Position numbers and translations under genes: made by a program. Below the pieces are notes generated by a model. The model was not told the DNA's origin and did not search any database. It saw nothing but the letters and a program-made list of their open reading frames with translations. Below, piece by piece: positions 1,594 through 23,631 of a stretch of DNA of 52,382 bases. The stretch spans positions 1-52,382 of the forward strand of contig CAJQQZ010000116.1 of the NCBI GenBank assembly GCA_905480575.1, read 5' to 3'. Each line of letters begins with the position of its first letter. The stretch's first letter is position 1. The DNA is from an uncultured Alphaproteobacteria bacterium (lineage in GTDB: Bacteria; Pseudomonadota; Alphaproteobacteria; UBA7985; CAJQQZ01).

Positions 1594-2315
1594 GCGTCTG
1601 AACCTTTTTTCGAAGCGTTGGCTTTACTCGGTAGCAACTTGTAGCGATGGACGTTTTCTTTTCCCAGCAACAGTGTTGTCGCTCCATCTACAAAGAATGC
1701 AGAAATAGCTGGGTCAATCACTGGTAGGCCACCAGTTAAGGACCCGAAGGCTGGCATGATCAATCTGTTTTGCGAATAGATAAAACAAGCACGTGAAAGT
1801 GTTCGGCCTCTAACTTTAACTTTGGCCTTGGGATGATAGTGTCCGGAAATTTCGCTGACGCCCGCGGGCAACTCGACCAATGCTTCGTGACGAAGGTCAA
1901 CTTGTCCAAATCGTAGGACCGAATGTTGTCTCCAGCCACGTTGCTCTGGTTCTTCGTCGTGATTACCAGTGATCCAGTTCCAACGATAACTCGCCAGTAA
2001 CTTTGAAAACTGGGTTTTGACGATGGCTGGCATTCGATTTAACGCTGTGTTGTCGTGAAATGAGTCGCCTAAAGTGAAGATTTGTTTGGCTTCGAAAAAC
2101 CGTGCGGCTGCTTCTAATTTATTGAGAGTTTCACCGCTGTCGTAAGGGGGGAGAAACTGACCTTTTGCAGCAAAGTGGCTGGCCTTTTCTAAATGTAGAT
2201 CAGCAACAATCAGCGCTTGTTTTTGCGGCCAGTAAAGTGCGCCTGAAGGATGGGCATAAAAATGCTGACCAGAGAGCACGATCAGTTGGCAGCCACGGGG
2301 TAGATTGGATTCCAA
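1590..2315 (-). CDS. pdeM: Ligase-associated DNA damage response phosphoesterase PdeM
   Basis: A 241-residue calcineurin-like metallophosphoesterase with the metal-binding motifs in order: VADLHLEK (D-x-H), GDSFHD, GNHDEEP and GHYHPKAK. The family is the manganese-dependent DNA nuclease that travels with Lhr-Core, the MBL exonuclease and an ATP-dependent ligase. The start is most likely TTG at 2315, 7 bases after the helicase stop: the frame has a stop six codons before the TTG and no ATG or GTG between. A GTG about 12 codons downstream is the alternative. It forms one transcription unit with the helicase and photolyase. Confidence 0.88.
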   Translation of the reverse strand: MESNLPRGCQLIVLSGQHFYAHPSGALYWPQKQALIVADLHLEKASHFAAKGQFLPPYDSGETLNKLEAAARFFEAKQIFTLGDSFHDNTALNRMPAIVKTQFSKLLASYRWNWITGNHDEEPEQRGWRQHSVLRFGQVDLRHEALVELPAGVSEISGHYHPKAKVKVRGRTLSRACFIYSQNRLIMPAFGSLTGGLPVIDPAISAFFVDGATTLLLGKENVHRYKLLPSKANASKKGSDA

Positions 2316-2322
2316 GGTATTT

Positions 2323-4740
2323 TTAGCCCATTACCTCAGCGATAAGGTCGTCTGACCCTTCGTCGAGAAGTTCATCATGCGCAGAACCGTAAACAGATTC
2401 GCGGCCTATTTCTAGAAGAATTGGGAGCGCCATAGGCGAAACTTTTCCCAGGCGTTGAAATTGCAGTTTTTCATCGTAGCGTGAAAGCAGGTCAGACAAT
2501 CGGGCCACATCAGTGAGGCCCGCGGCGGCATCGGCCCAAGTTGCCCTCAGCAAGATATGTTCGGGTTCGTGGCGTCTCAAAACGTTGTAAATGAGGTCAG
2601 AGTTTACAGTTACTTGTTTACGCGATTTTTCTTCTCCTGGATGACGCCGTTCAATGAGGCCCGCGATCACGGCGCAATTCCGGAAAGTACGTTTGAGTAG
2701 GGAGGAATCTTGTATCCAATCCTCTAGATCGTCACCAAGCATATCTCTACTAAAGAGCTCTGCGAGTTGCTCTTCAGTTGGAGCCCGCAAAGACCAAGTG
2801 GCTATCACATAATCCGTTGCCACAAACCCCAAGGGGCCCAGACCGAGCCGTTCCATTCGTTTGGTTAACAGCATGCCAAGTGTTTGGTGAGCATTCCGCC
2901 CTGCAAAACAATAGGCAACCAAATATTCCCTATCGGCACGTGGAAATGATTCAATGAGTAGTGTTTTCGGGTTTGGAGTGACCGACACTTCCATCTGGGC
3001 CGAAAGCCAATCGCGTACTTGTTTAGGAAACTTTCGCCAATAGTCTGAGTCTTGCAGCATACTCCGAACTCGGTCGGCGAGATGAGTGGACAAAGGGAGC
3101 CGACCGCCACCATAGGCTGGTATTTTTGGTGTGCCCGATCCGCCTGAGGTACATTCCAGGAAAACTTCGCGGATACGTTTGAATTGAAGCAATTGGCCAG
3201 AGAATATGAAAGTGTCACCAGGTTCCAACATTTGCGCAAATGATTCTTCGACTTCACCTAATGTTCGCCGGCCCAATTTAACCCTCAGCGTTGGTGCCTC
3301 GACGATGGTTCCGACGTTCATTCGATACTGGCGAGCAAAGCGCTGATGCGCGATCTTGTATCGTCCTTCTTCGTCAATGATCAGACGTTTGTATTGCTCG
3401 TAGGCTCTCAGCGCATAGCCACCATCGCTGACAAAATTCAGAATTGAGTCGAAGTCTTCGCGGCTCAAGTAGGCATAAGCTGCCGTGTTTGAAATATCCC
3501 GGTACAGAAGGTCAGCGTCGAAGGCTTCAGAGCAGGCTGTGCCGATCAAATGTTGAGCGAGCACGTCCATGCCGCCGTCGCGTTCTAACACGTCATCCAG
3601 TGTGTGCTCCTTCACGCCGTCAATGGCCGCTTGGCATTCTAACGTCTCGAAACGGTTAGCCGGCACAAGAACTGCACGGCTGGATTTGTCGAACTGGTGA
3701 TTGGACCGACCAATTCTTTGCAGCAGTCGGGAAACTCCTTTTGGCGCTCCGACCTGGATCACTAGATCCACGTTCCCCCAATCAATGCCTAAGTCCAATG
3801 AGGAGGTGGCGACAACGGCCTGCAACACGCCGCGGGCCATTGCGGCTTCGACTTTGCGGCGTTGTTCTGGGGCGAGGCTGCCGTGGTGGAGGGCTATGGA
3901 TAGTCCATCTTCATTGATGGACCAGAGGTCCTGAAAGACCAGCTCCGCTTGCGCGCGAGTGTTCACAAAAACAATGGCTGTTTTGGCGTTTTTAACGAGT
4001 TCATAAATCTCATTTACGGCATGAAGCGCCATGTGCCCTGACCAAGGCATACGGGCTTTGGTTTTCAAAATGGAGACCTTCGGTTTTGGCCCCGGTTTTC
4101 CCACAATCAGTTTTGTTGTCTGCTCGCCATCCCCAGCGACCGGCGCTAACCAACGCTGCAAATAAGCTGGGTCAGCGACCGTTGCAGATAAACCTATGCG
4201 GCGAACCTCGGGAGCCAAAGACGTAAGTCGTGCAAGTCCGAGTGCCAGCAGATCACCGCGTTTGTTATCAGTCAGTGCATGAAGCTCATCAATGATGAGG
4301 CATTTAAGGGAACCGAAAATTTTGTTCGCATCAGTATAAGACAGCAAAAGTGCAAATGATTCCGGTGTTGTCAGGAGAATTGACGGAGGTTTTTTCCTCT
4401 GCCGTTGTCGCTTGTGACTGGGGGTGTCGCCGGTTCTGGTTTCAATCGTAACGTTGAGCCCCATTTCTTCTACCGGCAGGGTGAGGTTTCGATGGATATC
4501 GACGGTGAGCGCCTTGAGAGGAGAAATGTAGAGCGTATGCAGCCCTTCTATCGGGTTGCGATAGAGATCAATAAGGGATGGTAGAAAACCCGCCAGAGTT
4601 TTGCCCCCGCCCGTCGGGGCAATCAGCAGGCAATCCTCACCCTTTATGCCTGCTTTGAGCATGTCTTTTTGGTGCCGATGTGGGGCCCAGCCACGGCTTT
4701 CAAACCAATCTGTGAAAACTTGAGGCAATTGCTTCGCCAT
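2323..4740 (-). CDS. Ligase-associated DEXH-box helicase (Lhr-Core-like)
   Basis: Superfamily 2 3'-5' DNA helicase of about 805 residues. It has Walker A APTGGGKTLAGF, motif II IIDELHAL, motif III SATVADP, the second RecA domain with VFVNTRAQAELVF and HHGSLAPEQRRKVE, and motif VI QRIGRSNHQ. The C-terminal winged-helix and Lhr-core regions follow. I choose ATG at 4740 because homologues begin close to the LPxxFxxWFxxRGW motif; a GTG six codons upstream (4758) also fits and neither has a strong ribosome binding site. It is the first gene of the leftward repair unit and is divergent from the exonuclease gene, with about 50 bp between them. Confidence 0.9.
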   Translation of the reverse strand: MAKQLPQVFTDWFESRGWAPHRHQKDMLKAGIKGEDCLLIAPTGGGKTLAGFLPSLIDLYRNPIEGLHTLYISPLKALTVDIHRNLTLPVEEMGLNVTIETRTGDTPSHKRQRQRKKPPSILLTTPESFALLLSYTDANKIFGSLKCLIIDELHALTDNKRGDLLALGLARLTSLAPEVRRIGLSATVADPAYLQRWLAPVAGDGEQTTKLIVGKPGPKPKVSILKTKARMPWSGHMALHAVNEIYELVKNAKTAIVFVNTRAQAELVFQDLWSINEDGLSIALHHGSLAPEQRRKVEAAMARGVLQAVVATSSLDLGIDWGNVDLVIQVGAPKGVSRLLQRIGRSNHQFDKSSRAVLVPANRFETLECQAAIDGVKEHTLDDVLERDGGMDVLAQHLIGTACSEAFDADLLYRDISNTAAYAYLSREDFDSILNFVSDGGYALRAYEQYKRLIIDEEGRYKIAHQRFARQYRMNVGTIVEAPTLRVKLGRRTLGEVEESFAQMLEPGDTFIFSGQLLQFKRIREVFLECTSGGSGTPKIPAYGGGRLPLSTHLADRVRSMLQDSDYWRKFPKQVRDWLSAQMEVSVTPNPKTLLIESFPRADREYLVAYCFAGRNAHQTLGMLLTKRMERLGLGPLGFVATDYVIATWSLRAPTEEQLAELFSRDMLGDDLEDWIQDSSLLKRTFRNCAVIAGLIERRHPGEEKSRKQVTVNSDLIYNVLRRHEPEHILLRATWADAAAGLTDVARLSDLLSRYDEKLQFQRLGKVSPMALPILLEIGRESVYGSAHDELLDEGSDDLIAEVMG

Positions 4741-4793
4741 AGAAAGCCGGAATCTCACTTTACCAAAGGGGTGCCAGACTCTAGTTTGCTCTC

Positions 4794-5813
4794 ATGCAAA
4801 GAGCAAGCCATCAGGCCGAAAGCTGGCTGAAAGTCACCCGGAAAGGACTCTATTGTGAGCCCGGGGATTTCTATGTCGATCCTGCTTTGGCTGTGGACCG
4901 TGCGCTCATTACCCATGCTCATGGTGATCACGCTAGACCTGGTAACAAGGCGGTTCTAGCCACTAAAGAGACGTTGAGGTTTATGCGGTTGCGATATGGC
5001 AAACGCGCTGGGCATCATCTTCAGGCCGTCACTTTGGGTGAAGTCATCTCGATTGGTCCCGTGAAGGTCAGTTTCTATCCCGCTGGACATGTGCTCGGTT
5101 CATGTCAAATTTTGTTGGAGTATAAAGGGTGTCGTGTTGTGGTCTCAGGCGACTACAAAAGACGGCCGGATCCGACGACGCTGGATTTTGAAGTGGTGCC
5201 TTGCCATGTTTTCATCACGGAAGCGACTTTCGGCCTTCCTGTTTTTGAGCATCCACCTGTCGAAAGTGAGCTCGAAAAACTGACACATGTACGGACGTGT
5301 TTTCCTGAACGCACGTTGCAGGTCAGTGCCTATAGCCTTGGCAAATGCCAACGCCTCATTGCCGAGTTGAGACGCGCAGGCATTGATGAGCCAATATACC
5401 TGCACGGTAGCCAGTATCATCACTGTGAAGCCTACCAGGAGCTAGGTGTCAATCTAGGTGAACTGCGATCTGTTGAATCTTGTCTGGGGGAAACTTTGAA
5501 AGGAGCTATAGTCTTTGCACCGCTCAATGTTTTGTTCCAGGACTATGCCGACAGAATTCTAGATCCAATCAGCACGTCTGCTTCCGGCTGGCTGCGGGTC
5601 AGAAGCAAGTCCTTCATGGGATCCTGTGAGCTACCGCTCATTATCTCTGACCACGTAGATTGGCCAGAACTTACCCAGACAATTGAGGAGGTCAATCCGG
5701 AGGAGGTTTGGGTTACACACGGGAGCGAAGAGGCGACAATCCATTGGTGCCGGTCTCACCAGCGAAGGGCCAAAGCGCTTTCTTTGGTTGGAAGAGGAGA
5801 TGGCGAAGAGTGA
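4794..5813 (+). CDS. Ligase-associated DNA damage response exonuclease (MBL fold)
   Basis: Metallo-beta-lactamase/beta-CASP fold nuclease, 339 residues, the fourth member of the bacterial Lhr-ligase repair cluster. The zinc motif THAHGDHARPG is near residue 40 and later metal-site segments include AGHVLGS, VVSGDYKRRPDPTT and SDHVDW. Its stop overlaps the GTG start of the DNA ligase (GTGA), indicating a coupled pair. It lies divergently to the helicase gene, so the short region 4741-4793 must contain both promoters. Confidence 0.9.
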   Translation: MQRASHQAESWLKVTRKGLYCEPGDFYVDPALAVDRALITHAHGDHARPGNKAVLATKETLRFMRLRYGKRAGHHLQAVTLGEVISIGPVKVSFYPAGHVLGSCQILLEYKGCRVVVSGDYKRRPDPTTLDFEVVPCHVFITEATFGLPVFEHPPVESELEKLTHVRTCFPERTLQVSAYSLGKCQRLIAELRRAGIDEPIYLHGSQYHHCEAYQELGVNLGELRSVESCLGETLKGAIVFAPLNVLFQDYADRILDPISTSASGWLRVRSKSFMGSCELPLIISDHVDWPELTQTIEEVNPEEVWVTHGSEEATIHWCRSHQRRAKALSLVGRGDGEE

Positions 5814-7381
5814 AGGCTTTTTCCCTCTTACTTGATTGCCTGTCTCATGCGTCTTCCGACGAGGCGAAGATAGTTTATTTGAGGAAGTACCTCCAAGACG
5901 TCAGCGCTTCGGAGCGAGGTTATGCTGTTGGTATTGTCACCAGGGAGCTTAATCTGCCAGCCATTAGACTTCCGCTACTGAAAAGCAGACTGTTGGATCG
6001 TGTAGATCCAAAGTTGTTCGAGCTTTCATTAAGTTTTGTCACTGATTTGTCAGAAACCATGGCCCTTCTTTGGCCAGCGATAGCTGAAAAACCAATAAGT
6101 TTACCGGATGTTGTTACCCGCTTGAACAACGCGGAAAAGGGTGAAGAGACAGCGGTAGTCGAAGATCTTCTCAACCACTTGCCCGCATCAAAGCGTTGGG
6201 TCGTGTTGAAGCTTGTGACAGCGAGAAAGAAACCGATAATTGCTCCACGTTTGGTGAAGGCAGCTTTAGCGCGTTGGGCGGGTAAGTCATCTCAAGAGGT
6301 GGCAGAGATTTGGCCTACACTGCCGCCCCCTTACACAGAGCTATTTGAATGGCTGGAGGGCAAGGGGGAACGCCCTGACGTTAAAGGAAGGGCTGTTTTC
6401 TTGCCAATGCAAAGCGCAGGAAACTTTGATCAAACCAAACTCAACCAAATCAAGTCACAGGATTTCGCTGTGGCAAGAAAGTGGGATGGTTTGAGAGTTC
6501 AGTTATCGTCCTTTGAGCAGGAAACGAAACTCTTCACATCAGAAGGGGACGACATCACGGCGTTGTTTCCCGATGCGGTAAAGCTGACTACTGATAATAG
6601 CGTTTTCGAAGGGGACTTAGTGATTGTTCGTGATGGAGAAATACAGCCTGCAAATGAACTCCAACCAAGATTAAACCGAAAATCAGCAACCAAGAAGTTA
6701 CAGGAATCTCATCCTGCGCGCTTTATCATTGATGACGTTCTGATCCTTAAGGGACAAGACGTAAGGAGCCGAATTTATAGCCAGCGGTATGAAGATCTAG
6801 AAAAGTATTTTGGCGATCAATCAAATTGCAAAGTGACTAAAACATTGCCGTGCTTAGATGAGCCCACCTTGCTCGACTTGCGGAAAGCCACTACCCAAGA
6901 AAGAGGTGTGGTCGGCATTCGATTAAAACGCTGGGACGCTCCCTATGAGGAGAAAAACCGAGCGGGATGTTGGTTGGATTGGCTCAACCCTCCGAAAGAA
7001 GCGCGTTTGGTTTTGCTTTATGCAGAAAAAGGTAAAGGAGCGATGTCGCCCCTTTACAGCGAGTTCACGCTTGGGACTTTGAACCAGAATGATGCCGGTG
7101 AAACTCTTGCCCTACCCGTGGGGAAATCTACTTTTGAAGGTGACAAAGAAGAACTGGCATCCATCAACCAGTGGATCGAAAATAATGTCGTTGAGCGTTT
7201 TGGGCCAGTTAGATCAGTGAACCTTGGTCTAGTCTTCAGGGTCACGTTTGGCGCCGTGCAACCATCGGCCCGTCGGAAATCTGGTTTGATCCTGACATCA
7301 CTATCTGTCGAGCAGGTGCTGTGGGAGGAAAGCTGGATAGAGGCCACGACGAGGCAAGAGCTCTTAGGTCTTATGGATTAG
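5810..7381 (+). CDS. ATP-dependent DNA ligase of the Lhr-associated repair cluster (divergent motif V)
   Basis: A 523-residue DNA ligase. The start is GTG at 5810, overlapping the exonuclease stop (GTGA), with a GAGGAGA-type ribosome binding site about 9 bases before. The N-terminal DNA-binding domain is followed by motif I ARKWDGLRV with the adenylated lysine, EGDLVI (motif III), IIDDVLIL (IIIa), RLKRWDAPY (around motif IV) and an OB-fold with RKSGLIL. Odd point: where related enzymes have a WWKWKxDP motif V, this protein has CWLDWLNP, so both lysines of the motif appear to be replaced. Nick joining may be weak or altered; that is inference from an alignment by eye. The stop overlaps the convergent epimerase gene by 11 bp. 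Confidence 0.88.
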   Translation: MKAFSLLLDCLSHASSDEAKIVYLRKYLQDVSASERGYAVGIVTRELNLPAIRLPLLKSRLLDRVDPKLFELSLSFVTDLSETMALLWPAIAEKPISLPDVVTRLNNAEKGEETAVVEDLLNHLPASKRWVVLKLVTARKKPIIAPRLVKAALARWAGKSSQEVAEIWPTLPPPYTELFEWLEGKGERPDVKGRAVFLPMQSAGNFDQTKLNQIKSQDFAVARKWDGLRVQLSSFEQETKLFTSEGDDITALFPDAVKLTTDNSVFEGDLVIVRDGEIQPANELQPRLNRKSATKKLQESHPARFIIDDVLILKGQDVRSRIYSQRYEDLEKYFGDQSNCKVTKTLPCLDEPTLLDLRKATTQERGVVGIRLKRWDAPYEEKNRAGCWLDWLNPPKEARLVLLYAEKGKGAMSPLYSEFTLGTLNQNDAGETLALPVGKSTFEGDKEELASINQWIENNVVERFGPVRSVNLGLVFRVTFGAVQPSARRKSGLILTSLSVEQVLWEESWIEATTRQELLGLMD

Positions 7382-10656: not shown

Positions 10657-13209
10657 TTAGAACAAGGCGTCGTAGAGCGCCAAGTCGCGCTCATAGACAT
10701 CATCGCGGAAGTTAACTGTTCCTCCTTCGCCACTCCAGGCGGTTGCATAAGTCAAGTGAACGGGAAGCTTTTGCTTTAGGGGAACGACGGTGCGCTCTTT
10801 GCTTTCGATCAGATCGTCAATTCTTTGACGATCCCAGCCTTCTAACTGTTGCAATACCTTCTCCGCCAGGTCCAATGGACGTTGTAACCGGATGCACCCT
10901 GAGCTGTATGTACGGACTGCTTTGGAGAAAAGACTTCTGGCAGGGCTGTCATGAAGATAGATTGAAAAATCATTGGGAAACATAAACTTAACTTGACCCA
11001 GTGCATTCTTTGGCCCTGGAAGTTGACGCAGTGTATAGGGGAAGTAGTCCTTCGACAAAGAATTCCAGTCAACAAAGTAAGGATCAATTTCTGTTCCACT
11101 TTCTAGAACCTGAAAGCCCATACGTTCAATGAAACTTGGGTCGGCCAGGATTTGCGGGAGCTCATCTTCTACGGCGATTTTGTAGGGGACTGTCCAGTAC
11201 GGATTGAATTCCAGATATTCAATTTCGTCTGAAAACACTGGTGTCTTTCGGAAGGGTTTGCCAACGACGACAGCCATATGTTCCTTCACTGATCCTTGTT
11301 CAATCATACGCATCTCGAAGCCCGCGATGTTCACAAGGATGTAGTTGTCGCCCATGTTTTCCGGCATCCATCGCCAACGTTCCATGTTGACGATGATTTG
11401 CTTTATGCGTTGAATTACGGGGATGTTCAGTTGTCGGTAAGTTCCTTTTCCAACAATACCATCTGCCTCTAATCCGTGACGGTCTTGGAAGCGTTTGACG
11501 GCCATCTTCAGGCTTGTGTCAAACAAGTCAGGCCTATCACTTGGAACAGAGATGTCGTGCGACGCTTCAAGTCTTTGCCTTAGAATCGCAACATCGCTTC
11601 CCGACATATCAGGCTTGAGAACTCGGTCAGTCGGTACAGTGGGCCAGCCGCCTTTTACAAGGATTGTTTGATGTTTTGAGAGGAGAGAGCGCAAGGCCCT
11701 GTATTCTGGGTTGGATGATCGGAAGCTTGCGACAAATTGATGGAGCGAAGTAGCTTCCGACAGTTCGATTAGCGTTGCCTCGACATCAAGCCGTTTAGTT
11801 TGCACAAAAAGCTCAGGATCAATTGCCCTGGGTTTTAGTCGACCGATTTTTAGATCGGATGCATAAAAGGCAAAAAGAGTCGAAAACGTTGCCTCCGCTC
11901 TTGCCAGACTTACGAGGTCGGTTGTTCCCTCTACATTGTCGCTTAGCTGTTTCAAAGCCTGTACAGGATAGTCTCCTGGATTTAGTCCGTCACTGACAAC
12001 GGCATGAAGAGTTTGCAACAGTTGGTCCCTTGCATTCTTTGACTTTGCCCACAGAACCTCGGGTTTATCATTGCGATAATAGCTGATGAGACCCTGCCGA
12101 TAATCTTTGAAGCCTTTTGGGAAACGATCATTCAATTCAATGAGGTCAGATGCCAATTCAGCGACCGTATCAAGGTCCTCCATTGACAAGTTGGTGCTCG
12201 TATTAGAGCTCGCCTCCACCGCTCTGGGGGCTTCCATCAAACCAGCTTGACTGAAGGAATTCTGTGCACCAGTGTGGAATGGAAGAAGCAAACCAGAGGA
12301 AATCATTTGGCCAAGCGTCAAATCTGCAAAGGCTGGGTGCCATTGTTGTAGGTGCGGTAGTTTGATGAGTAGTTGGTTGGTGAAGTTTTCGATCAAATCT
12401 GGATCGCTATCTTTGTGCGTTACGACCACAGCTCTAACGCCAAAAGTGCTCACCGGCGCTGAGTTCAGCCCATAGACTTCGCCCGAGATGGACATCTTGG
12501 AATAGATGCCGGGATTGGAAGACATCAAAGCCTGCAATGTCTTTTCAGGGAAGGAAACCAATTGTATCGAGCATTTTTCAGCAGCTCTTTCTATCGCCCG
12601 GTTGGGATGCCCAGCCATGAAAGCAAAGGCATCGATACGACCCCTGCACAGATTCTTGTCTTGCTCTGTGCCTTTGAATTCAGTGACCAGCGAAAAATCT
12701 TGGTAGTCTATCCCGTTGGAAGATAGAAATGTTGAAACGCTGGTTCTGGTTCCGGAACTGGGATTAGCAACGTCAAAGCGCTGACCTAACAAATCGTCGA
12801 AGTCGCTGATGTTTGAGCCAGCTTTTGCAACCACTGTCATCGGCTCCAGGTGCAGGGCTAACAGGCCTCGCAGATCTATGAACGGAGAGCGACCTTCAAA
12901 GGCCCCCGTAGCGTTGATTGCTTGTTCAATGAGGTCAGACTGGACAATGGCTATGTCGATCTCTTTTCGCTTGAGCGCCTCTAGATTGTCCAGGCTACCG
13001 CCTGTCGTGAGCGTGTGACATTTGGGGGAGCTGTCTGGTTTTGTACGGTTATAGTTCCTGCATATCTCTGCCGCTGTTTGATAATAGAGTCCAACCACAC
13101 TTCCTGTGCCGATCGTGAATATTCCTTCGGCTTTGGATTGGGGGAGGTTGAAAAGTATGACGAGCCAAATGCCAGTCAACTGCATTGCTAATCTTACAAA
13201 TGGAGGCAT
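10657..13209 (-). CDS. Fusion: TAXI-type solute-binding domain with YcbB-like L,D-transpeptidase
   Basis: An 850-residue exported protein. Residues 1-27 look like a signal peptide (ending QSKAEG). Residues about 28-310 match TAXI-family TRAP solute receptors: FTIGTGSVVGLYYQTA, TTGGSLDNL, IDIAIVQSDL and NPSSGTRTS. After a Ser/Thr-rich linker come an LdtD/YcbB scaffold region (ARAEATFSTLFAFYASDL), a peptidoglycan-binding domain (FQDRHGLEADGIVGKGT) and a YkuD catalytic domain with YLHDSPARSLF and SSGCIRLQRP; the nucleophile is about Cys772. ATG at 13209 has AGGGA 8 bases upstream; a TTG eight codons earlier is less likely. No TRAP membrane subunits are nearby. The predicted role is 3-3 peptidoglycan cross-linking with a ligand-sensing periplasmic domain; the coupling is inference. 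Confidence 0.88.
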   Translation of the reverse strand: MPPFVRLAMQLTGIWLVILFNLPQSKAEGIFTIGTGSVVGLYYQTAAEICRNYNRTKPDSSPKCHTLTTGGSLDNLEALKRKEIDIAIVQSDLIEQAINATGAFEGRSPFIDLRGLLALHLEPMTVVAKAGSNISDFDDLLGQRFDVANPSSGTRTSVSTFLSSNGIDYQDFSLVTEFKGTEQDKNLCRGRIDAFAFMAGHPNRAIERAAEKCSIQLVSFPEKTLQALMSSNPGIYSKMSISGEVYGLNSAPVSTFGVRAVVVTHKDSDPDLIENFTNQLLIKLPHLQQWHPAFADLTLGQMISSGLLLPFHTGAQNSFSQAGLMEAPRAVEASSNTSTNLSMEDLDTVAELASDLIELNDRFPKGFKDYRQGLISYYRNDKPEVLWAKSKNARDQLLQTLHAVVSDGLNPGDYPVQALKQLSDNVEGTTDLVSLARAEATFSTLFAFYASDLKIGRLKPRAIDPELFVQTKRLDVEATLIELSEATSLHQFVASFRSSNPEYRALRSLLSKHQTILVKGGWPTVPTDRVLKPDMSGSDVAILRQRLEASHDISVPSDRPDLFDTSLKMAVKRFQDRHGLEADGIVGKGTYRQLNIPVIQRIKQIIVNMERWRWMPENMGDNYILVNIAGFEMRMIEQGSVKEHMAVVVGKPFRKTPVFSDEIEYLEFNPYWTVPYKIAVEDELPQILADPSFIERMGFQVLESGTEIDPYFVDWNSLSKDYFPYTLRQLPGPKNALGQVKFMFPNDFSIYLHDSPARSLFSKAVRTYSSGCIRLQRPLDLAEKVLQQLEGWDRQRIDDLIESKERTVVPLKQKLPVHLTYATAWSGEGGTVNFRDDVYERDLALYDALF

Positions 13210-13301
13210 TTTTTGATTCCCTGTTTGGACCAACCTAAGCTAAGTCACTTATTGATGGAATAGGATCTGAAGAACTTGTGAACGGTTAGAAGGCAGCACC
13301 A

Positions 13302-14033
13302 GTGAGTTACAAAAAACTAAAGCCAATTAAAGGATTGTTGTTCGACAAGGATGGTACCCTGTTTGATTTTCACTCGGAATGGCATATTCCAGCTATGGAA
13401 GCTGCTATGTTCGTCGCTGAAGGAAATCAAGCATTGGCTAACCGAATGCTGCTCTCTTCTGGTTATGATGTAAAAACCGGCGTTTTTGGCTCTGGCTCTT
13501 TGATTGCTGCAGGCACGGCATTGGATATTCTAAGGTGTTGGCTAGAGGTCAAACCCAGTGAACGCAGTTGGGAAGAACTCGTTCGGAAAACAGATGAAAT
13601 TTTCCGAGATGGCACTGATCCAATCGCCGCCCAAGTGACGGATCTGAACCAGTGGATAACGGACTTGAAGGCTCGGGGCTTTGTCATTGGGTTGTCAACA
13701 CACGACTCGTTTGAAGCGGCAGAAAGCCAGCTCTCGAAAGTTCGTGCTTTCGAATTGTTTGACTTTGTCGCCGGGTACGATTCTGGACATGGTCATAAGC
13801 CTGGCCCTGGGATGTTAAACGCTTTTTGTAAGCATACAGGGTTAGACGCTTCTCAGGTTGCTGCAGTCGGTGACAATACCCATGATCTGGGAATGGGCCG
13901 CTCAGGTGGGGCAGGTGCGACCATTGCTGTTATGACAGGCACGGGTGTCGTCGAAGACCTTCAGCCATTGGCGGATTTTATTTTCCCATCAATCGTGGAG
14001 TTTGGAGCAGCTTTGCAGGAAGCTCGTGGCTGA
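13302..14033 (+). CDS. HAD-family phosphatase (phosphoglycolate phosphatase-like)
   Basis: A 243-residue haloacid dehalogenase-like hydrolase. Motif I is FDKDGTLFDF with the nucleophilic Asp, motif II is LSTH, motif III is the HKPGPG region, and motif IV is VGDNTHDLGMG. A helical cap lies between motifs I and II. The start is GTG with AGAAGG about 8 bases before. It resembles Gph-type phosphatases, but the substrate cannot be fixed. It is divergent from the TAXI/transpeptidase gene. Confidence 0.85.
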   Translation: MSYKKLKPIKGLLFDKDGTLFDFHSEWHIPAMEAAMFVAEGNQALANRMLLSSGYDVKTGVFGSGSLIAAGTALDILRCWLEVKPSERSWEELVRKTDEIFRDGTDPIAAQVTDLNQWITDLKARGFVIGLSTHDSFEAAESQLSKVRAFELFDFVAGYDSGHGHKPGPGMLNAFCKHTGLDASQVAAVGDNTHDLGMGRSGGAGATIAVMTGTGVVEDLQPLADFIFPSIVEFGAALQEARG

Positions 14034-14040
14034 TGGTTGT

Positions 14041-15066
14041 CTAGCCTCTCCGCCGGCCTTTTCTTTCGCGTTTTGGCATTACGATTTCTTCACCACTTGC
14101 ATCGGCTTTTGCGCCCATGGTGACGTCGCCTAATTTCTTGACGATGGTTGCCATATCAGGCACCGGATTTGGGGAATAGTTATCCAGGGCTTTTCGCATA
14201 GCAGCGACGTGTTTTGGCGTTGTGCCGCAGCAGCCTCCGACGATGCGCGCGCCACAATCAACCGCTAGGCCAGCGTAGTATTCCATCATTTCGACGGTGC
14301 CGCTGTATTGGATTTCACCGTCGATGAATTCAGGGACGCCGCAATTTGCTTTAGCGATGATCAGGTCTTCAGCACCAGCTGCATTCTTCATCGAGATTGT
14401 GATAGCGATGAGTTCTGCAGGGCCAACGCCACAGTTCGCTCCGTAACAGGCTGGATGCTCAGAGCTTTTTGGGCTGATTTCGGTGAGGTCGATTGGGGTA
14501 ATCCCCATCATTGTACGGCCGTTCGTGTCGAAACTCAATGTCGTGACAATCGGTAATCCCGTTTTTTCAGCTGCCTCGTAAGCCGCTAATAGTTCTTCTT
14601 TGGAAGATATTGTTTCAATCCAAAGAACATCAGCACCACCTTTTGCAAGGGCACTTGCTTGTTCGTAGAATGCCTCAACGGCTTCCGCATGGGTAAGAGC
14701 TCCCAGGGGTTCGAACAACTCGCCTGTTGGGCCAATCGAACCAGCAACAACAACTGGACGGTCAACACTGCTTGCAATTTCTTTTGCAAGGGCTGCTGCC
14801 TTTTCGTTCAGTTCGGTGACGCGGTCGTCAGCTTGGTGCAGTTTTAGGCGATGCCTGGTGCCGCCAAAAGAGTTGGTCAGAATAATGTCTGACCCCGCAT
14901 CGACAAAATTTTGATGGAGAGCTCGAATTTTATCTGGTTGTTCGTCGTTCCAGAGCTCAGGCGCGTCACCGCTCATTAACCCCATTGCAAAGAGGTTTGT
15001 TCCGGTTGCGCCATCCGCGAGAATGGGTTTTCCACTTGATAGTAAGTCGAGGAAGGCGTTTGACAC
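14041..15066 (-). CDS. bmt: Betaine-homocysteine S-methyltransferase
   Basis: A 341-residue homocysteine methyltransferase that would convert glycine betaine and homocysteine to dimethylglycine and methionine. The TIM barrel begins ILADGATGTNLFAMGL. The zinc-binding cysteines are in YGANCGVGP and GGCCGTTP (277-284). The length and the position in a betaine/sarcosine cluster favour Bmt over a generic MmuM; this is inference. It ends with a basic tail (KRERKGRRRG) that also has counterparts on the MttB, RamA-like and MeTr proteins of this cluster. The start is GTG with a weak GGA site. A 9-bp-arm palindrome lies 15 bp upstream and may be its operator. Confidence 0.85.
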   Translation of the reverse strand: MSNAFLDLLSSGKPILADGATGTNLFAMGLMSGDAPELWNDEQPDKIRALHQNFVDAGSDIILTNSFGGTRHRLKLHQADDRVTELNEKAAALAKEIASSVDRPVVVAGSIGPTGELFEPLGALTHAEAVEAFYEQASALAKGGADVLWIETISSKEELLAAYEAAEKTGLPIVTTLSFDTNGRTMMGITPIDLTEISPKSSEHPACYGANCGVGPAELIAITISMKNAAGAEDLIIAKANCGVPEFIDGEIQYSGTVEMMEYYAGLAVDCGARIVGGCCGTTPKHVAAMRKALDNYSPNPVPDMATIVKKLGDVTMGAKADASGEEIVMPKRERKGRRRG

Positions 15067-15081
15067 GTCGATATTCCGGAT

Positions 15082-15105
15082 TTTTGTTCGTTATATCGAA
15101 CAAAA
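15082..15105. promoter_or_regulatory. Palindromic operator candidate upstream of bmt
   Basis: TTTTGTTCG, six bases (TTATAT), then CGAACAAAA: a perfect 9-bp inverted repeat. On the minus strand it contains a TATAAC that could be the -10 element of bmt, so a bound regulator would block the promoter. A SAM- or SAH-responsive ArsR-type regulator is one possibility for a methionine-cycle gene, but I do not recognise the motif with certainty. Confidence 0.45.
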
Positions 15106-15135
15106 TAGAAAACCCACCTGAATTTATCAAGTGGG
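15101..15135 (-). terminator. Rho-independent terminator after the OmpA-family gene
   Basis: On the minus strand CCCACTTGA-TAAAT-TCAGGTGGG forms a 9-bp stem with one T-G wobble, followed by TTTTCTATTTTG. It lies about 30 bp past the OmpA-family stop and partly overlaps the bmt operator candidate. Confidence 0.75.
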
Positions 15136-15162
15136 CTTTCGTCTAAAATGGAGTTTTTGTGG

Positions 15163-15912
15163 TTAGAATCGGCAGTTGGATTGCAGTGGTGCAATTTGTA
15201 ATTCAACGCGGCGGTTTTGTGCCTGCCCTGTTGGCGTAGCATTGCTTGCAATTGGTTGTCTTTCACCCATTGCAACTGCGCGAATACGGCTGCCGGACAA
15301 TCCTGACCTTTGAAGGAAGCGGCTCACAGCGTTAACACGCTGGGCAGAGAGTACTAAGTTATAGCGATCTCCGCCACGGCTGTCTGTGTGTCCCGAGATG
15401 GTGACACTTGAGCCTGGGTACGCGCTTAGGCTTTGTGCAATAGCTGACAGAGGCGCTGTGAATTGAGGCCGTATAGTAGCTTGCGCAGTATCAAAGGTGA
15501 TATTGTTGTTCGCTCTGATAAGAATGCCTGTTGCTGTACGCCCGACCTGTATGCCGTAAGGGGCCAAACTGTAAGAAAGTTGGGCTGCCTGTTCGTTAAG
15601 GTTCGGACAACCAGGAATTGGCACTGGTTGTGGGATCGGCTGAGGGATAGGTTGCGGTGTAGGAACGGGAGCAGGAAGTACCGGCGGGTAGCCCGGAATC
15701 GGTTGTGGGTATGGCAAGGGTTGCGGGGTTACTTGCGGTACGGCATAGCCAGGCAGTCCGGGGGTTCCGACCGCGTAGTACTTGTTGGTTGTTCCAGGAC
15801 CGTAAACACCTGCCGTGTCGCCAGTAGGGGCAAAAGTAGACAGGTTAGATGCGTTAGCCGCCAACGGAGCCATGGCTGTTAAGATAGTCGCAATTTGCAA
15901 TATGCGTCGCAT
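15163..15912 (-). CDS. OmpA-family outer membrane protein with Pro-rich linker
   Basis: A 249-residue envelope protein. ATG at 15912 (GAGGT just upstream) gives a clean signal peptide MRRILQIATILTAMAPLAANA. The middle is proline- and glutamine-rich with repeated QPIPQP units, probably a spacer in the periplasm. The C-terminal OmpA/MotB domain binds peptidoglycan: ITFDTAQATI, TISGHTDSRGGDRYN, LSAQRVNAVSRFL and GQAQNRRVEL. A terminator follows. It sits inside the betaine region but is transcribed on its own and has no obvious metabolic link. Confidence 0.85.
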   Translation of the reverse strand: MRRILQIATILTAMAPLAANASNLSTFAPTGDTAGVYGPGTTNKYYAVGTPGLPGYAVPQVTPQPLPYPQPIPGYPPVLPAPVPTPQPIPQPIPQPVPIPGCPNLNEQAAQLSYSLAPYGIQVGRTATGILIRANNNITFDTAQATIRPQFTAPLSAIAQSLSAYPGSSVTISGHTDSRGGDRYNLVLSAQRVNAVSRFLQRSGLSGSRIRAVAMGERQPIASNATPTGQAQNRRVELQIAPLQSNCRF

Positions 15913-16210
15913 TTTACCTCGCAAAATAAAAATTCCATAATGATTGGGGGAAGACACAAGCTGTGAATCCCTCAATTTGTTCAAATTAATCTCTATTTTA
16001 CCTTATGCAAAATGCGCGCCTAATGCAGCTGCAAAATTGGTGTGTTGGAGTCGTTGAAAACTCGGAGGCATCCTTTTGAAGCAATGGCGCTGAATGCCTT
16101 AAGCTTGTCGTGGTTCGGCAAGTCTGGAAAACAGCAAGATAGCAAAACAAAGCCATCGAATCACACTTCAAAATTTTGATTGATTTTGATTACAGAAGGT
16201 TAGGACACTC

Positions 16211-17767
16211 ATGACAGTTCAAGCATCCAGTGGTAGACGTTCGCGCGGTCGCAGTGGCGGCGGTGCTGAAGCGCGAAGAGCAGCGCGCACTAGTTCTGCT
16301 GTACAGTTCCTCGGTGCGATGGAACGCAAACTTTCTCCCATGGAAGTCCTCAGTGAGGAAGGCCTGGAAATCATTGAGAACAATGCTGAAACCATCCTTG
16401 AAGAAATCGGGATTGAGTTTCGCGATGACCCAGAAGCCATTGCTATTTTGAAGGAAGCAGGGGCTGACATTCAGGGTGAGCTCGTTCGTTTCCCTCGTGG
16501 AATGTGTCGAGAGCTTTGCAAGACGGTTCCTTCTAGTTATCAGTACCATGGCCGCGATCCAGCACGCACTGTCACTGTAGGCGGCAAGAATACGGTTTAT
16601 GCCCCTGTTTATGGACCTCCATTCTACAGAGACTATGTGACCGACCGTCGGTACGCGACAATCGACGACTTCCGCAAAATGGTTAAGCTTGCTTACATGC
16701 TGCCAGCGCTTCACTCGTCAGGCGGCACAATTTGTGAACCTGTTGATGTTCCGGTGAACAAGCGTCATTTGGATATGGTTTACACCCATCTGCGTTACTC
16801 AACTAAACCGATCATGGGGTCGGTAACCGCACCGGAAAGAGCGCAAGATTCTGTTGATCTTTGTTCGATTGTCTTCGGTGATCAGTTCGTCCAAGACAAC
16901 ACAGTTATGACGTCACTGATTAACGCGAACTCTCCTATGACCTTTGATGATACAATGCTCGGCGCATTGAAGGTCTACGCGAAAAACAATCAGGCTTGTA
17001 TCGTGTCGCCCTTCATTATCGGCGGTGCCATGTCGCCTGTGACACCTGCTGGCGTTATGGCCCAGGCTCTCGCTGAAGGTCTGGCGGGCATAGCCTTTTC
17101 ACAGTTGGTGCGCCCCGGTGCGCCGATTGTGTTCGGAACCTTTGCTTCTTCGATGTCGATGCAAACCGGCGCGCCGACATTCGGCATGCCAGAACCGGCG
17201 TTGATTATCTATGGCATGGCACAGTTAGTGCGTCGTTTGAATATTCCTTTCCGTTCTGGGGGCAGTCTCTGTGCCTCAAAGTTACCTGATGCACAGGCAG
17301 CCTATGAAAGTGCCAACACGATCCTGCCAACAACGCTGGCGGGCGTGAACTTCAGCCTTCATGCTGCTGGTTGGTTAGAGGGTGGTTTGGTGTCTTGTCC
17401 AGAAAAGATGATTATGGATGCCGATCAACTAGCCGCCCTGCATGTCCAAATGACCGGTGTTGATCTCTCTGAAAACGGCCAAGCCATGTCAGCGGTGCGT
17501 GAATGCGGCCCAGGGCAACATTTCCTTGGATGCGAACACACGAAGCAAAACTTTGAAACAGCTTACTATCGTTCAACAGTCGGCGATTCCAACTCCTTTG
17601 AGCAATGGGAAGCTGAAGGAGCGAAAGACACTTTCGCCCGTGCGCATGACGTCATGAACAAAATGCTGAGTGAATACGTGGCACCAGAGATTGATCCAGC
17701 AATTGACGAAGCTTTGTTAGCTTTCATCGCGAAACGTAAAGAATCAATGCCTGACGCCATGTATTGA
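16211..17767 (+). CDS. MttB-family corrinoid methyltransferase (non-pyrrolysine, probably betaine-type)
   Basis: A 518-residue member of the trimethylamine methyltransferase superfamily, expected to move a methyl group from a quaternary amine to the cognate corrinoid protein. There is no in-frame TAG, so no pyrrolysine; such members include the glycine betaine enzyme MtgB. Conserved TIM-barrel stretches include SSGGTICEPVDVP, MGSVTAPERAQDS, SPFIIGGAMSPVTPAG and QTGAPTFGMPEPALI. The first 26 residues hold seven arginines (GRRSRGRS...EARRAAR). The substrate is inferred from the linked bmt, sox and gbdR genes; carnitine or another betaine is possible. It stands alone on the plus strand, divergent from the OmpA-family gene and followed by a strong terminator. 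Confidence 0.87.
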   Translation: MTVQASSGRRSRGRSGGGAEARRAARTSSAVQFLGAMERKLSPMEVLSEEGLEIIENNAETILEEIGIEFRDDPEAIAILKEAGADIQGELVRFPRGMCRELCKTVPSSYQYHGRDPARTVTVGGKNTVYAPVYGPPFYRDYVTDRRYATIDDFRKMVKLAYMLPALHSSGGTICEPVDVPVNKRHLDMVYTHLRYSTKPIMGSVTAPERAQDSVDLCSIVFGDQFVQDNTVMTSLINANSPMTFDDTMLGALKVYAKNNQACIVSPFIIGGAMSPVTPAGVMAQALAEGLAGIAFSQLVRPGAPIVFGTFASSMSMQTGAPTFGMPEPALIIYGMAQLVRRLNIPFRSGGSLCASKLPDAQAAYESANTILPTTLAGVNFSLHAAGWLEGGLVSCPEKMIMDADQLAALHVQMTGVDLSENGQAMSAVRECGPGQHFLGCEHTKQNFETAYYRSTVGDSNSFEQWEAEGAKDTFARAHDVMNKMLSEYVAPEIDPAIDEALLAFIAKRKESMPDAMY

Positions 17768-17790
17768 GTCTTATCGAACCGGAATAAAGA

Positions 17791-17828
17791 AAAGGGCTGA
17801 AGAATTTTCTTCAGCCCTTTTTCGTTGG
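17791..17828. terminator. Bidirectional terminator between mttB-like and SCP2 genes
   Basis: AAAGGGCTGAAGA-ATTT-TCTTCAGCCCTTT is a perfect 13-bp stem flanked by A and T runs, so it can stop the mttB-like transcript from the left and the soxBDAG-SCP2 transcript from the right. Confidence 0.88.
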
Positions 17829-17844
17829 TTAGTTTTATTTCGTG

Positions 17845-18153
17845 TTAGCCTTTGAACAAACTCGCTAAAGACATAGCTTTGCTCATATCGCCTGATATTT
17901 TAATCTTACCCATCATTACTGCGGTTGTTGGGTTAACTGTTCCAGCAATTAGGCCTTCAACAGTATCAAGGGAGCATTTGACCGTCGTGTCTGCTTCCAT
18001 GTCATCGTTGGATACCGTCATGGGGGAGGCAGTTCCATCTAAAGCCACGATGCCATCTGATCCGAAATCAAACTTTATTTTCGCGCCAATGGAAGGTGCG
18101 GAGGCCGCTAGCCCAGAAATCTTGTTCGTCAATTCTTCCAAATTAAATGCCAT
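17845..18153 (-). CDS. SCP2 sterol-binding family protein
   Basis: A 102-residue single-domain SCP2 protein (LEELTNKISG, KIKFDFGSDGIVALDG, VKCSLDTVEGLIAGTVNP, GKIKISGDMSKAMSLASLF), a small lipid- or hydrophobe-binding fold. ATG at 18153 follows the soxG stop by 2 bases, so translation is coupled to soxG and this is the last gene of the sarcosine oxidase operon. Its role there is unknown; it may bind an acyl or amphipathic ligand or help assembly. Confidence 0.85.
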   Translation of the reverse strand: MAFNLEELTNKISGLAASAPSIGAKIKFDFGSDGIVALDGTASPMTVSNDDMEADTTVKCSLDTVEGLIAGTVNPTTAVMMGKIKISGDMSKAMSLASLFKG

Positions 18154-18155
18154 GT

Positions 18156-18755
18156 TTAACTCGATATTGCCAAGCCGAAGCCGATTGAACCGCTTTCCAA
18201 CCAAGCCCACAGGTATTGACTGAAGCTCCGACGGACGTAGAGTTTATAGAAAGGGGCATCGCTGACCTGCTGCAAAATTACGTTTGTCTTCGCTGCATGG
18301 GTTTGTGTGGACATGCCTGTGTGAAATTCACGAGGGTGCAAATCAAGCGGGATCGCTTTTTGAAGTAAAGCCCGTGCCTTTTCACCTTCGACCGTGATGA
18401 CCGCGAAATTGTCACTGACATTAACAGCCGAGTGATGAACACCGTCCAAGGCTTCGTCGAGTTTAGAGACGAGCTCATTGCCTTCCATGTTTTGGCTAAC
18501 GATCATCCATTCGTCAGGGGCTAACCAATGGACTTCGGTCTCCTTACCTTCAACGAAATAGTTGGCTTTTTGCGGAAGGTCGACCCCAACCAGGGTTGCC
18601 ACAGCCTTCATTGCGGCTTTATTGGCTGGGTCGAGGCGAAGATTAACAACCATTGGGCGGCCACCGTCACCCATAGTGACCTGAGCGTTGTCCTCTGAAG
18701 TTCGTCCCACAAGACCGAGATCGTTCAGTGGGCCTTGACGCATGAAGTTATCCAT
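18156..18755 (-). CDS. soxG: Sarcosine oxidase subunit gamma
   Basis: A 199-residue gamma subunit of heterotetrameric sarcosine oxidase. It has the folate-binding GcvT-like features of the family (WLAPDEWMIV, VNVSDNFAVITVEGEKAR, PLDLHPREF and YKLYVRRSFSQYLWAWLE). It overlaps soxA by 8 bp at its start and is followed after 2 bases by the SCP2 gene. With alpha, beta and delta it oxidises sarcosine to glycine, formaldehyde or methylene-THF, and hydrogen peroxide. Confidence 0.92.
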   Translation of the reverse strand: MDNFMRQGPLNDLGLVGRTSEDNAQVTMGDGGRPMVVNLRLDPANKAAMKAVATLVGVDLPQKANYFVEGKETEVHWLAPDEWMIVSQNMEGNELVSKLDEALDGVHHSAVNVSDNFAVITVEGEKARALLQKAIPLDLHPREFHTGMSTQTHAAKTNVILQQVSDAPFYKLYVRRSFSQYLWAWLESGSIGFGLAISS

Positions 18756-21700
18756 TTTGGCGGTTTCCTTCTTTATCGTAGAACACCGTGTCAGTTATTG
18801 TACATTCGATCACGCGACCATCTGCCTGCGGTGAATAGAGTTTTTGTCCCATCTTCTTCAAGCCGCCATGAACAAGCGCCATCGCGATGGAACGGTCACA
18901 GTTAGGACTCCAGTAGGAAGAGCTGACCCAACCAACCATATCCATCGGCGGCTTGTCCTTAACAACTTCCACCAATTGAGCGCCTTCCGGCAGTACTTCT
19001 TTTGGATCGTCCGTTAGAATGCCAACCAATTGCTTGCGATTAGGGTCAGACATGTCTTCACGGTCTAGCGAGCGTTTTCCGATGAAATCGCCCTTTTTCT
19101 TTGAGACGATCCAGTTCATGTTCAAATCAACAGGCGTGATCGACCCGTCTGTGTCTTGACCAACGATAATGAAACCTTTCTCAGCACGAAGAACGTGCAT
19201 CGTTTCAGTGCCGTATGGCGTGATGTCATACTTTGAACCGGCCGTCATCAAGGCCTGCCAAAGGGCCAGACCATAATCTGCTGGAACTGCAATCTCGTAG
19301 GATAGGTCACCGGTAAAGGAGATCCTGAAGACACGGGCAGGGATGCCAGCAACTGTTCCTGGGGTCCAAGCCATGAAAGGCAGAGCCTCATTAGAGAGAT
19401 CAATGTCATCCGTTAATTCGCTCAAGAGTGCTCGAGCATTCGGCCCAGCAATAGAAGCGGTTGCCCATTGTTCGGTCACGGATGTCAGATAGACTTCTAG
19501 ATCGGTCCACTCGGTTTGCAGGTAATCTTCTAAGTGTCCAAGAACAGGGGCGGCGTTACCGGTTGTGGTCGTCATCAAGAAGTGGTCTTCGGCAATGCGC
19601 GAAGTAACACCATCATCCATGACCATGCCATCTTCACCGAGCATCAAGCCGTAACGACACTTGCCAATACCAAGTTTGGTCCAGGCGTTGGTATACACTC
19701 GATTAAGGAACTCAGCTGCGTCCTTGCCCTTTACGTCGATCTTGCCGAGCGTTGTCGCGTCAAGAATGCCAACAGAATTACGCATAGCCGCGACTTCGCG
19801 ATTAACGGCGGCGTGCATGTCTTCACCAGGCTGTGGGAAGTACCAAGCACGTTTCCACTGTCCGACGTCCTCAAACTCTGCACCCGCATTTACGTGCCAG
19901 GAGTGCATTGGTGTGGTACGTGCGGGGTCCAGCAAATCGTCGATGTCACGACCAGCGATAGCGCCAAATGTGACCGGCACGTAAGGTGGACGGTAAGTCG
20001 TTGTGCCAACAGTAGGTATGGCTTCGTTCAGTGTCTGGGCAACAATGGCCAAAGCGTTAACGTTGGCAGTTTTGCCTTGGTCAGTTGCCATGCCAGTTGT
20101 TGTATAGCGCTTGACGTGCTCGATTGAACGATAGCCTTCGCGCAGAGCCAGTTGGAGGTCGGCAGCCGTTGAATCGTTTTGCAGATCAATGAAGTGCTTA
20201 CCGGATTGACCAAGCGGTTTCTTACCCGGCACAAGCCACAGAAGGCGGCGGTTGCCCTCATCAACAGCTTCTGCAGTTGGCGCTTTACCGGATTTTCTGA
20301 ATTTAATCCCAGCTGCTTTCGCTGCTTCCTGACCTGCCTCAAAACCTTGCGCCAGACAATCGGCCAAGCCAAACGCACCTTTGCATGAGCCTACGGAAAT
20401 GTTTGGATTAGTACGATTAGATGGAGCAGGGACGAATGCGCCACGTTCTTCATCAAAATCGAGCTTACCGCCAGCCTGGCAATGAAGGTGTACAGTTGGG
20501 TTCCAACCACCAGAACTGCCCAAGAAATCGCATGCAATTTCAGTGACGTCTGATTTGGCTGTTTCACCGTCGTCCGATAGCTCAGCAACTTCAACAGATT
20601 TTAGGTGCAAGCGACCGGATGTTCCAACGACCGCAGAATTGGTGAGTATTTTAACACCAGCAGCGTCTGCCTTTTCCATCAACGGGCCTAAAGGATCTTT
20701 GCGGACATCAACAACGGCTTTAATCTCAATGCCTGCATCAATCAAATCGAGAACGGTCGCATAAGCTGAATCGTTGTTTGTGAAGATGACGCCTTTGTTG
20801 CCGGGCTTAGCGCCAAAACGATTAACGTAGGTACGGCAAGCAGAGGCCAACATGATGCCTGGGCGATCATTGTCACAGAAGACAAGAGGGCGCTCGATAG
20901 CACCGGAAGCGATGATGACTTGCTTTGCTCGCATCATGTGGACACGGTGGCGAGGCAGGCCTTCCGGCTTAACAGGCAAATGATCTGTTAGACGTTCCCA
21001 AATGCCAACATAGTTGTGGTCATAGTAGGCGAAAGCAGTTGCGCGTCGGAGAACTTGGACGTTATCCAAGTCGTGAAGTTTGGCTTCAGCCTCATCAACC
21101 CATTCAAGAGCAGGCTTGCCATCGATCTCTTGGCCCGATTGAGCCATCAACGAACCACCGAAGCGCGGTTGATCGTCAACAAGCGTGACGTGAGCACCGG
21201 TCGCAGCGGCTGACAGCGCCGCACTTAAGCCTGCAGGCCCGCCACCAACAACGAGAACGTCACAGAACGCGTTGGTTTTGTCATAGAAATCGGGATCATG
21301 TTCTTCCGGTGCCTTGCCAATACCGGCAGCTTTGCGAATGAAATGCTCGTAAAATTTCCAGGCTTTAGAAGGCCACATGAAGGTTTTGTAATAAAACCCA
21401 GATACGAAAATCTTGGAGAAGAGAGAGTTAACTTCTCCGATGTCGTACTTTACCGTTGGAAAGGCATTTGACGTTGTAGCAACGAGGCCATCGAATAGCT
21501 CTTCCATTGTCGCGCGAGCGTTTGGCTCTGTATAGGCGCCTTCGCCTAGCTGCAACAATGCGTTGGCCTCCTCAGGGCCAGCTGACATGATGCCACGTGG
21601 ACGGTGATATTTGAACGATCTGCCAACTAGATGAACGCCATTCGCAATCAAGGCAGAGGCAAGTGTGTCGCCGTCATAGCCCTTCAATTCATGGCCATTG

Positions 21701-21768
21701 AAGGAGAAGGTGACGGGTTTATCGCGGTTAATTAAACCGCCAGATTCTAAGCGAAACTTTTGTGACAT
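18748..21768 (-). CDS. soxA: Sarcosine oxidase subunit alpha
   Basis: A 1006-residue alpha subunit, full length. The order is an N-terminal 2Fe-2S-like fold (HRPRGIMSAGPEEANAL), a Rossmann domain with VLVVGGGPAGLSAA at about 171-184, and a C-terminal GcvT-type folate-binding half from about 620 (VGILDATTLGKIDVKGKDA, SFTGDLSYEIAVPADY, LRAEKGFIIVGQDTDGSITP). The folate domain lets the released one-carbon unit be captured as methylene-THF, which links the operon to metF and fhs in the same window. It is 9 bp downstream of soxD. Confidence 0.95.
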   Translation of the reverse strand: MSQKFRLESGGLINRDKPVTFSFNGHELKGYDGDTLASALIANGVHLVGRSFKYHRPRGIMSAGPEEANALLQLGEGAYTEPNARATMEELFDGLVATTSNAFPTVKYDIGEVNSLFSKIFVSGFYYKTFMWPSKAWKFYEHFIRKAAGIGKAPEEHDPDFYDKTNAFCDVLVVGGGPAGLSAALSAAATGAHVTLVDDQPRFGGSLMAQSGQEIDGKPALEWVDEAEAKLHDLDNVQVLRRATAFAYYDHNYVGIWERLTDHLPVKPEGLPRHRVHMMRAKQVIIASGAIERPLVFCDNDRPGIMLASACRTYVNRFGAKPGNKGVIFTNNDSAYATVLDLIDAGIEIKAVVDVRKDPLGPLMEKADAAGVKILTNSAVVGTSGRLHLKSVEVAELSDDGETAKSDVTEIACDFLGSSGGWNPTVHLHCQAGGKLDFDEERGAFVPAPSNRTNPNISVGSCKGAFGLADCLAQGFEAGQEAAKAAGIKFRKSGKAPTAEAVDEGNRRLLWLVPGKKPLGQSGKHFIDLQNDSTAADLQLALREGYRSIEHVKRYTTTGMATDQGKTANVNALAIVAQTLNEAIPTVGTTTYRPPYVPVTFGAIAGRDIDDLLDPARTTPMHSWHVNAGAEFEDVGQWKRAWYFPQPGEDMHAAVNREVAAMRNSVGILDATTLGKIDVKGKDAAEFLNRVYTNAWTKLGIGKCRYGLMLGEDGMVMDDGVTSRIAEDHFLMTTTTGNAAPVLGHLEDYLQTEWTDLEVYLTSVTEQWATASIAGPNARALLSELTDDIDLSNEALPFMAWTPGTVAGIPARVFRISFTGDLSYEIAVPADYGLALWQALMTAGSKYDITPYGTETMHVLRAEKGFIIVGQDTDGSITPVDLNMNWIVSKKKGDFIGKRSLDREDMSDPNRKQLVGILTDDPKEVLPEGAQLVEVVKDKPPMDMVGWVSSSYWSPNCDRSIAMALVHGGLKKMGQKLYSPQADGRVIECTITDTVFYDKEGNRQNG

Positions 21769-21777
21769 AGCGGTTCT

Positions 21778-22083: not shown

Positions 22084-22093
22084 TGTTCAATCC

Positions 22094-23347: not shown

Positions 23348-23573
23348 CTGTATTTCTACTTCGCCAATTGAGTACTGGATGCCTTGAAATTGCTTCGAAA
23401 CAACAGGCTAAACGCAGCAATGATTTGAACGGCCCTGATAGTGGAAAGCCACGGACTGTCAAGTCAAGAAATATTCTTTCTTATTGGGGACTTAACTGTG
23501 CTTCCCTTTTGGTTCAGATTTCACTAAAGGACCATTTTTACACCGCCGACATTTTTTCTATTGGCGACAGGCT

Positions 23574-23595
23574 CGTCGCTAGTTAGGGTGCGACG
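23574..23595. promoter_or_regulatory. Inverted repeat in the soxB-gbdR intergenic region
   Basis: CGTCGC-N10-GCGACG lies about 36 bp before the ATG of the regulator gene in the 284-bp divergent region 23348-23631. Position suits an autoregulatory operator. Otherwise this region shows no convincing promoter or RNA element that I can name. Confidence 0.3.
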
Positions 23596-23631
23596 GTCTA
23601 TTTGTGGATAGTTCAGACGACTGGATAAAGA

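Follow-up and report, generated by a model that had tools for sequence, protein, structure and literature searches.

The window, the whole stretch of DNA that was analysed, comprises 52,382 nucleotides from an uncultured alphaproteobacterium. A gene on its minus strand encodes a protein in which a TAXI solute-binding domain, of a kind that ordinarily belongs to nutrient transporters, is joined to an L,D-transpeptidase (LDT), which cross-links the cell wall. Residue numbers of this fusion protein are counted from the TTG codon at 13233 unless the 850-residue numbering is stated. The gene and its parts are as follows.

10657..13233, minus strand: TAXI-LDT fusion gene, 858 residues from TTG 13233 or 850 residues from ATG 13209
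13129..13209, minus strand: Sec signal peptide, residues 9-35, with its hydrophobic core at 15-28 and a cleavage site, predicted by eye, between SKA and EG
12229..13128, minus strand: TAXI solute-binding domain, residues 36-335, matched by PF16868, TIGR02122 and 8S4J
12091..12228, minus strand: linker, residues 336-381, a Ser/Thr-rich stretch followed by the beginning of the first scaffold helix
11680..12090, minus strand: YcbB-type scaffold domain PF20142, residues 382-518, 89.8 bits
11428..11604, minus strand: peptidoglycan-binding domain PF01471, residues 544-602, 42 bits
10852..11346, minus strand: YkuD L,D-transpeptidase catalytic domain PF03734, residues 630-794, 75.7 bits

An earlier reading made from the letters alone (the sequence-only reading) had placed the gene at 10657-13209. 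These coordinates are right, and what was missing is the strand, since the gene lies on the minus strand; a plus-strand gene at the same position was ruled out, stops being found all through it. The unbroken frame that this reading had claimed is present in the assembled sequence. A single frame runs from 13233 or 13209 to 10657 and neither a stop nor a frameshift lies between the TAXI half and the LDT half. The claimed architecture was borne out as well, with the domains in the order signal peptide, TAXI, scaffold, peptidoglycan-binding and YkuD, and with PF16868, TIGR02122, PF20142, PF01471 and PF03734 all matching. Chance domain matches are excluded because the profile scores lie far above the cut-offs. 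Base composition is much the same throughout, GC and GC3 being 0.49 and 0.52 in the TAXI part, 0.49 and 0.56 in the linker and 0.48 and 0.48 in the LDT part, for a window GC of 0.49. The join of a TAXI domain and an LDT in one gene is real. The codons from the TTG to the ATG (13210-13233, QTGNQKM) are nearly identical in a genome of the same genus. The true start may be TTG 13233, or this stretch may hold conserved signals.

The signal peptide reaches a Kyte-Doolittle maximum of 2.05 at residues 15-27. There is no lipobox cysteine, the only cysteines of the fusion being at positions 58, 72, 196, 221 and 780. A Kyte-Doolittle scan of residues 320-402 found no second signal peptide in the linker, the maximum there being only 0.63. 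The continuous frame and this hydropathy together rule out two genes separated by a missed stop or a second signal peptide. With no such peptide in the linker, export of the transpeptidase to the periplasm is possible only within the fusion, although later cleavage could release it. Ahead of the scaffold the fusion carries 370 residues, against mostly about 30-110 in the LDT relatives retrieved.

The profile search of the N-terminal half confirmed the assignment to TAXI that the sequence-only reading had made. Residues 41-329 cover positions 1-287 of the 289 in PF16868 with 200.5 bits, and TIGR02122 (TAXI) scores 222.9 bits, its cut-off being 84.35. The closest solved structure to this half is VcGluP, 8S4J (E 9e-61), in which 13 residues touch L-glutamate directly or through water (PMC11574862). 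The corresponding residues of the fusion make up an L-glutamate-type pocket that is identical to VcGluP at ten positions (S45, Y50, Y51, S80, Q98, H128, E130, G161, M206 and G208) and differs at L49, T162 and F205; TAXI proteins of the same class that are linked to TRAP genes retain 9-10 of the 13. Mutation of Y45 and Q93 in VcGluP cut its affinity for glutamate 213- and 990-fold, respectively (PMC11574862), and the counterparts of both residues are kept in the fusion. The TAXI part is ∼35% identical to its relatives and it retains 29 of the 31 near-invariant TAXI columns and all four TAXI cysteines. From these features the TAXI half looks functional.

A further comparison drew on 25 TRAP-linked TAXI proteins, in which 114 columns show conservation of 90% or more. 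The fusion keeps only 70 of them, as would be expected if docking to a transporter no longer constrains the TAXI part, compared with 90 in an orphan TAXI (L114) and 89 in a TAXI of the same genome (L002). Conservation of the pocket beyond that of the rest of the TAXI part was not significant (8/10 versus 62/104, p = 0.18). In the tree the TAXI part stands on a long branch beside an orphan TAXI of genome G120 (97/95), the nearest to it, in a grouping that depends on long branches. This orphan (L163:7736-8728) is flanked by genes for a GGDEF protein and endonuclease III, and no LDT or TRAP gene was found near it.

The catalytic motif of the second half is intact, H761-x16-SSGC780IR fitting the pattern H-x15-18-[S/T]-x-G-C-h-[R/N], and 24 of the 25 near-invariant LDT columns are kept. 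The best solved relatives of this half are YcbB/LdtA structures, to which the LDT core is ∼30% identical along its whole length. In an AlphaFold2 model built with LDT relatives the LDT part was confident, and residues 351-847 of the model superimposed on Vibrio cholerae LdtA, 7AJZ, with Z 32.5 and rmsd 4.1 over 465 residues; the comparison of the modelled LDT part with Escherichia coli YcbB gave Z 31.2. Around the linker the model is of low confidence up to residue 337, with a helix at 343-359 (850-residue numbering). The TAXI half of the model, built without TAXI relatives, was poor; it was left uninterpreted and gives nothing on the packing of the domains. TAXI relatives for the model were sought among viral contigs and none were found. 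The NCBIfam equivalog for E. coli-like LdtD, PRK10594, scored 279.5 bits, below its cut-off of 425, so that by profile the LDT part is of the same type as LdtD but is not the E. coli equivalog. In trees it pairs with L008 (98), a sequence from an uncultured member of the Rhizobiales, and is separate from the ordinary YcbB of the genus, which by a quick tree is common to G001 and G002. Judged by its motif and conserved columns the LDT half looks functional, and 3-3 cross-linking or D-amino-acid exchange is its predicted activity.

The TAXI proteins nearest to the fused one mostly adjoin a TRAP membrane gene, with few exceptions, and the fused TAXI does not. No DctM gene (PF06808) was found on the window contig, though the genome holds many, and the statement of the sequence-only reading that no TRAP membrane genes are near therefore holds. 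A search of the whole genome for GltS (PF03616) gave no match. Six other TAXI proteins are encoded in the genome, on contigs that include C134, C17, C150 and C6 (L006, L003, L002 and L007), and in the searches made only those on C16 and C43 adjoin a DctM gene. Elsewhere in the window, 1590-7381 holds a complete and ordinary ligase-associated DNA-damage cassette with genes for PdeM endonuclease, a DEXH helicase, an exonuclease and a cisplatin-response ATP-dependent ligase. The stretch 13302-24678 holds genes for a HAD protein, homocysteine S-methyltransferase, an OmpA-like protein, MTTB, the alpha and beta subunits of sarcosine oxidase and a GbdR-like regulator, and looks like a block for choline, betaine and sarcosine breakdown. 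The fusion gene abuts the near end of this block in both species of the genus. The neighbouring block may hint at an osmolyte-related signal.

The second species of the genus is represented by genome G001, in which the same gene order, MttB, OmpA-like protein, homocysteine methyltransferase and HAD protein, is followed by the start of the TAXI gene. The G001 contig stops 65 codons into this gene. The remainder of it was sought in the G001 assembly and was absent, as was the next gene (MFS). The unusual start GTGSVVGLYY is common to both species, and of the differences in the 30 mature codons that can be compared, 17 are synonymous and 3 nonsynonymous. As far as this short stretch goes, the TAXI lineage is common to the congener and under purifying selection.

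The complete fusion is known from one genome only. The sequence-only reading had hoped for a count of many genomes sharing the architecture, and this expectation failed. No second complete fusion was found in ∼900 genomes (the other genomes of the order, and samples of the class, of the phylum and of the two orders holding near single-domain relatives); at the strict cut-offs applied to class and phylum, 1e-80 and 1e-90, a much more divergent fusion could have escaped. None was found among 72,556 plasmid records, and none in a pattern scan of the genome contigs of 84,980 species, a scan that relies on short exact peptide matches. Long frames in G038, G025 and G024 were considered as fusions and rejected: each is a frame overrun in high-GC DNA, encloses an ordinary leader and is without a TAXI match. 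A TAXI gene adjoining an LDT gene, as a two-gene forerunner of the fusion, was not present in any of the loci retrieved (flanks of 1.5-8 kb).

Solute-binding proteins close round their ligand. The explanation that we prefer, at something short of an even chance, is that ligand-driven closure of the TAXI domain regulates or positions the transpeptidase, with a presumed ligand, a presumed closure and a presumed coupling to the enzyme. The protein would be a soluble YcbB/LdtD-type LDT of the periplasm, in which a complete TAXI protein has taken the place of the enzyme's own signal peptide. The TAXI domain would still bind a small amino or organic acid, something like glutamate being the best guess from the pocket, and the ligand would close the domain like a clamshell. 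Closure would act through the ∼45-residue linker and the adjoining scaffold on LDT activity, on substrate access or on the binding of a partner. The extent of 3-3 cross-linking or D-amino-acid exchange would then track a periplasmic nutrient or osmolyte signal. In E. coli the scaffold domain has been suggested to take part in protein contacts (PMC6478713). The sequence-only reading had likewise suggested a periplasmic sensor that gates cross-linking; this is compatible with the intact pocket and catalytic site, with export only as a fusion and with the lack of a nearby transporter, while the gating itself is something that we infer. It is also possible, and is put forward with more reserve, that the protein is a complete periplasmic circuit in one chain, where the LDT is switched directly, with neither a membrane receptor nor transcription involved, by a transporter-derived domain that detects a small molecule.

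The same features could be read in terms of location. The TAXI domain might be a targeting or docking module tethering the LDT to a membrane protein, either a TRAP component encoded elsewhere or some other partner, or to peptidoglycan, with any ligand being incidental or serving localisation. Known LDTs do localise through binding domains and anchors (PMC12729407), the genome has its many DctM genes and two TAXI-TRAP loci, and a TAXI of Bordetella pertussis works with the unrelated transporter GltS, TAXI-GltS fusions also existing (PMC12344293). Nevertheless, it is just those columns associated with TRAP linkage that are eroded in the fusion, no gene for a partner is on the contig, GltS was not found in the genome and the YcbB part already has its own peptidoglycan-binding domain. 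Tethering is somewhat unlikely in our judgement. We think it less likely again that the fusion arose by chance and is neutral or recent, the LDT being constitutive and the TAXI part a mere export leader or an independent uptake protein. A single complete example, with no conservation of the domain order found beyond the genus, is what such an event would leave. However, a mere leader would not retain almost all of the near-invariant TAXI columns, the pocket and the four cysteines at such low overall identity, and the mature TAXI stretch differs from that of the congener almost exclusively at synonymous sites.

Two further explanations have little probability. The peptidoglycan stem holds D-glutamate and LDT reactions use stem peptides containing D-Glu. 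With a pocket of the glutamate-binding type, the TAXI domain could have become a substrate-recognition module for a piece of the stem peptide, feeding the LDT or sensing its substrate or product. Against this, VcGluP fully encloses its ligand and is specific for glutamate (PMC11574862). An unchanged pocket would therefore not accommodate a polymer or a stem peptide, and the pocket residues of the fusion are nearly unchanged; recognition of this kind is very improbable. Marginally less credible still is a misassembly that joined separate TAXI and LDT genes. The source assembly is in 189 contigs and has no 16S gene, and for these reasons the genome is probably a metagenome assembly. The join is nevertheless in frame, it has a natural-looking linker, the LDT beyond it lacks a signal peptide, the base composition is equal on both sides and the congener has the same unusual TAXI lineage beside the same genes.

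Little is known of how LDTs are regulated in the periplasm, most of the recognised control acting on transcription. An intact predicted pocket joined in nature to an intact LdtD-type enzyme is a directly testable case of metabolite-controlled cross-linking of the wall, made by a class of enzymes that causes beta-lactam bypass. The fusion also widens the case for recruitment of TAXI proteins to roles beyond TRAP transport.

No account of an L,D-transpeptidase fused to a TAXI or other solute-binding domain was found in the open-access literature, in agreement with the sequence-only reading, which knew of none. The two halves come from families that are known; their combination is new to us. The LDTs of the YcbB/LdtD type (E. 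coli YcbB, 6NTW; V. cholerae LdtA, 7AJ9 and 7AJZ) share with the fusion their domain order, motif and a fold of ∼465 residues, but in them a short leader precedes the scaffold where the fusion has a whole TAXI domain. The LDTGo 1,3-transpeptidases (PMC10864386) have <10% identity to YcbB and a YkuD domain with a reduced capping loop; membership of this group was rejected, given the identity of the fusion to YcbB structures over the LDT core. The TAXI proteins of TRAP systems (VcGluP, 8S4J; TtGluBP, 1US5) resemble the fusion in their full-length domain, glutamate-type pocket and cysteines, whereas the fused TAXI is joined to an enzyme, has no TRAP membrane gene on its contig and has lost many of the columns conserved with TRAP linkage. 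BP0403 and the TAXI-GltS fusions (PMC12344293) are, like the protein described here, cases of TAXI outside TRAP and within fusion proteins, but the TAXI-GltS fusions are transport proteins with a Na+/glutamate symporter, whereas a cell-wall enzyme is the partner in the present case. The LDT of Liberibacter that is controlled by LdtR (PMC3999280) is similarly an alphaproteobacterial LDT under small-molecule or osmotic control, as we propose for the fusion. In Liberibacter this control is exerted by a separate transcriptional regulator, whereas in the fusion it would take place within one protein.
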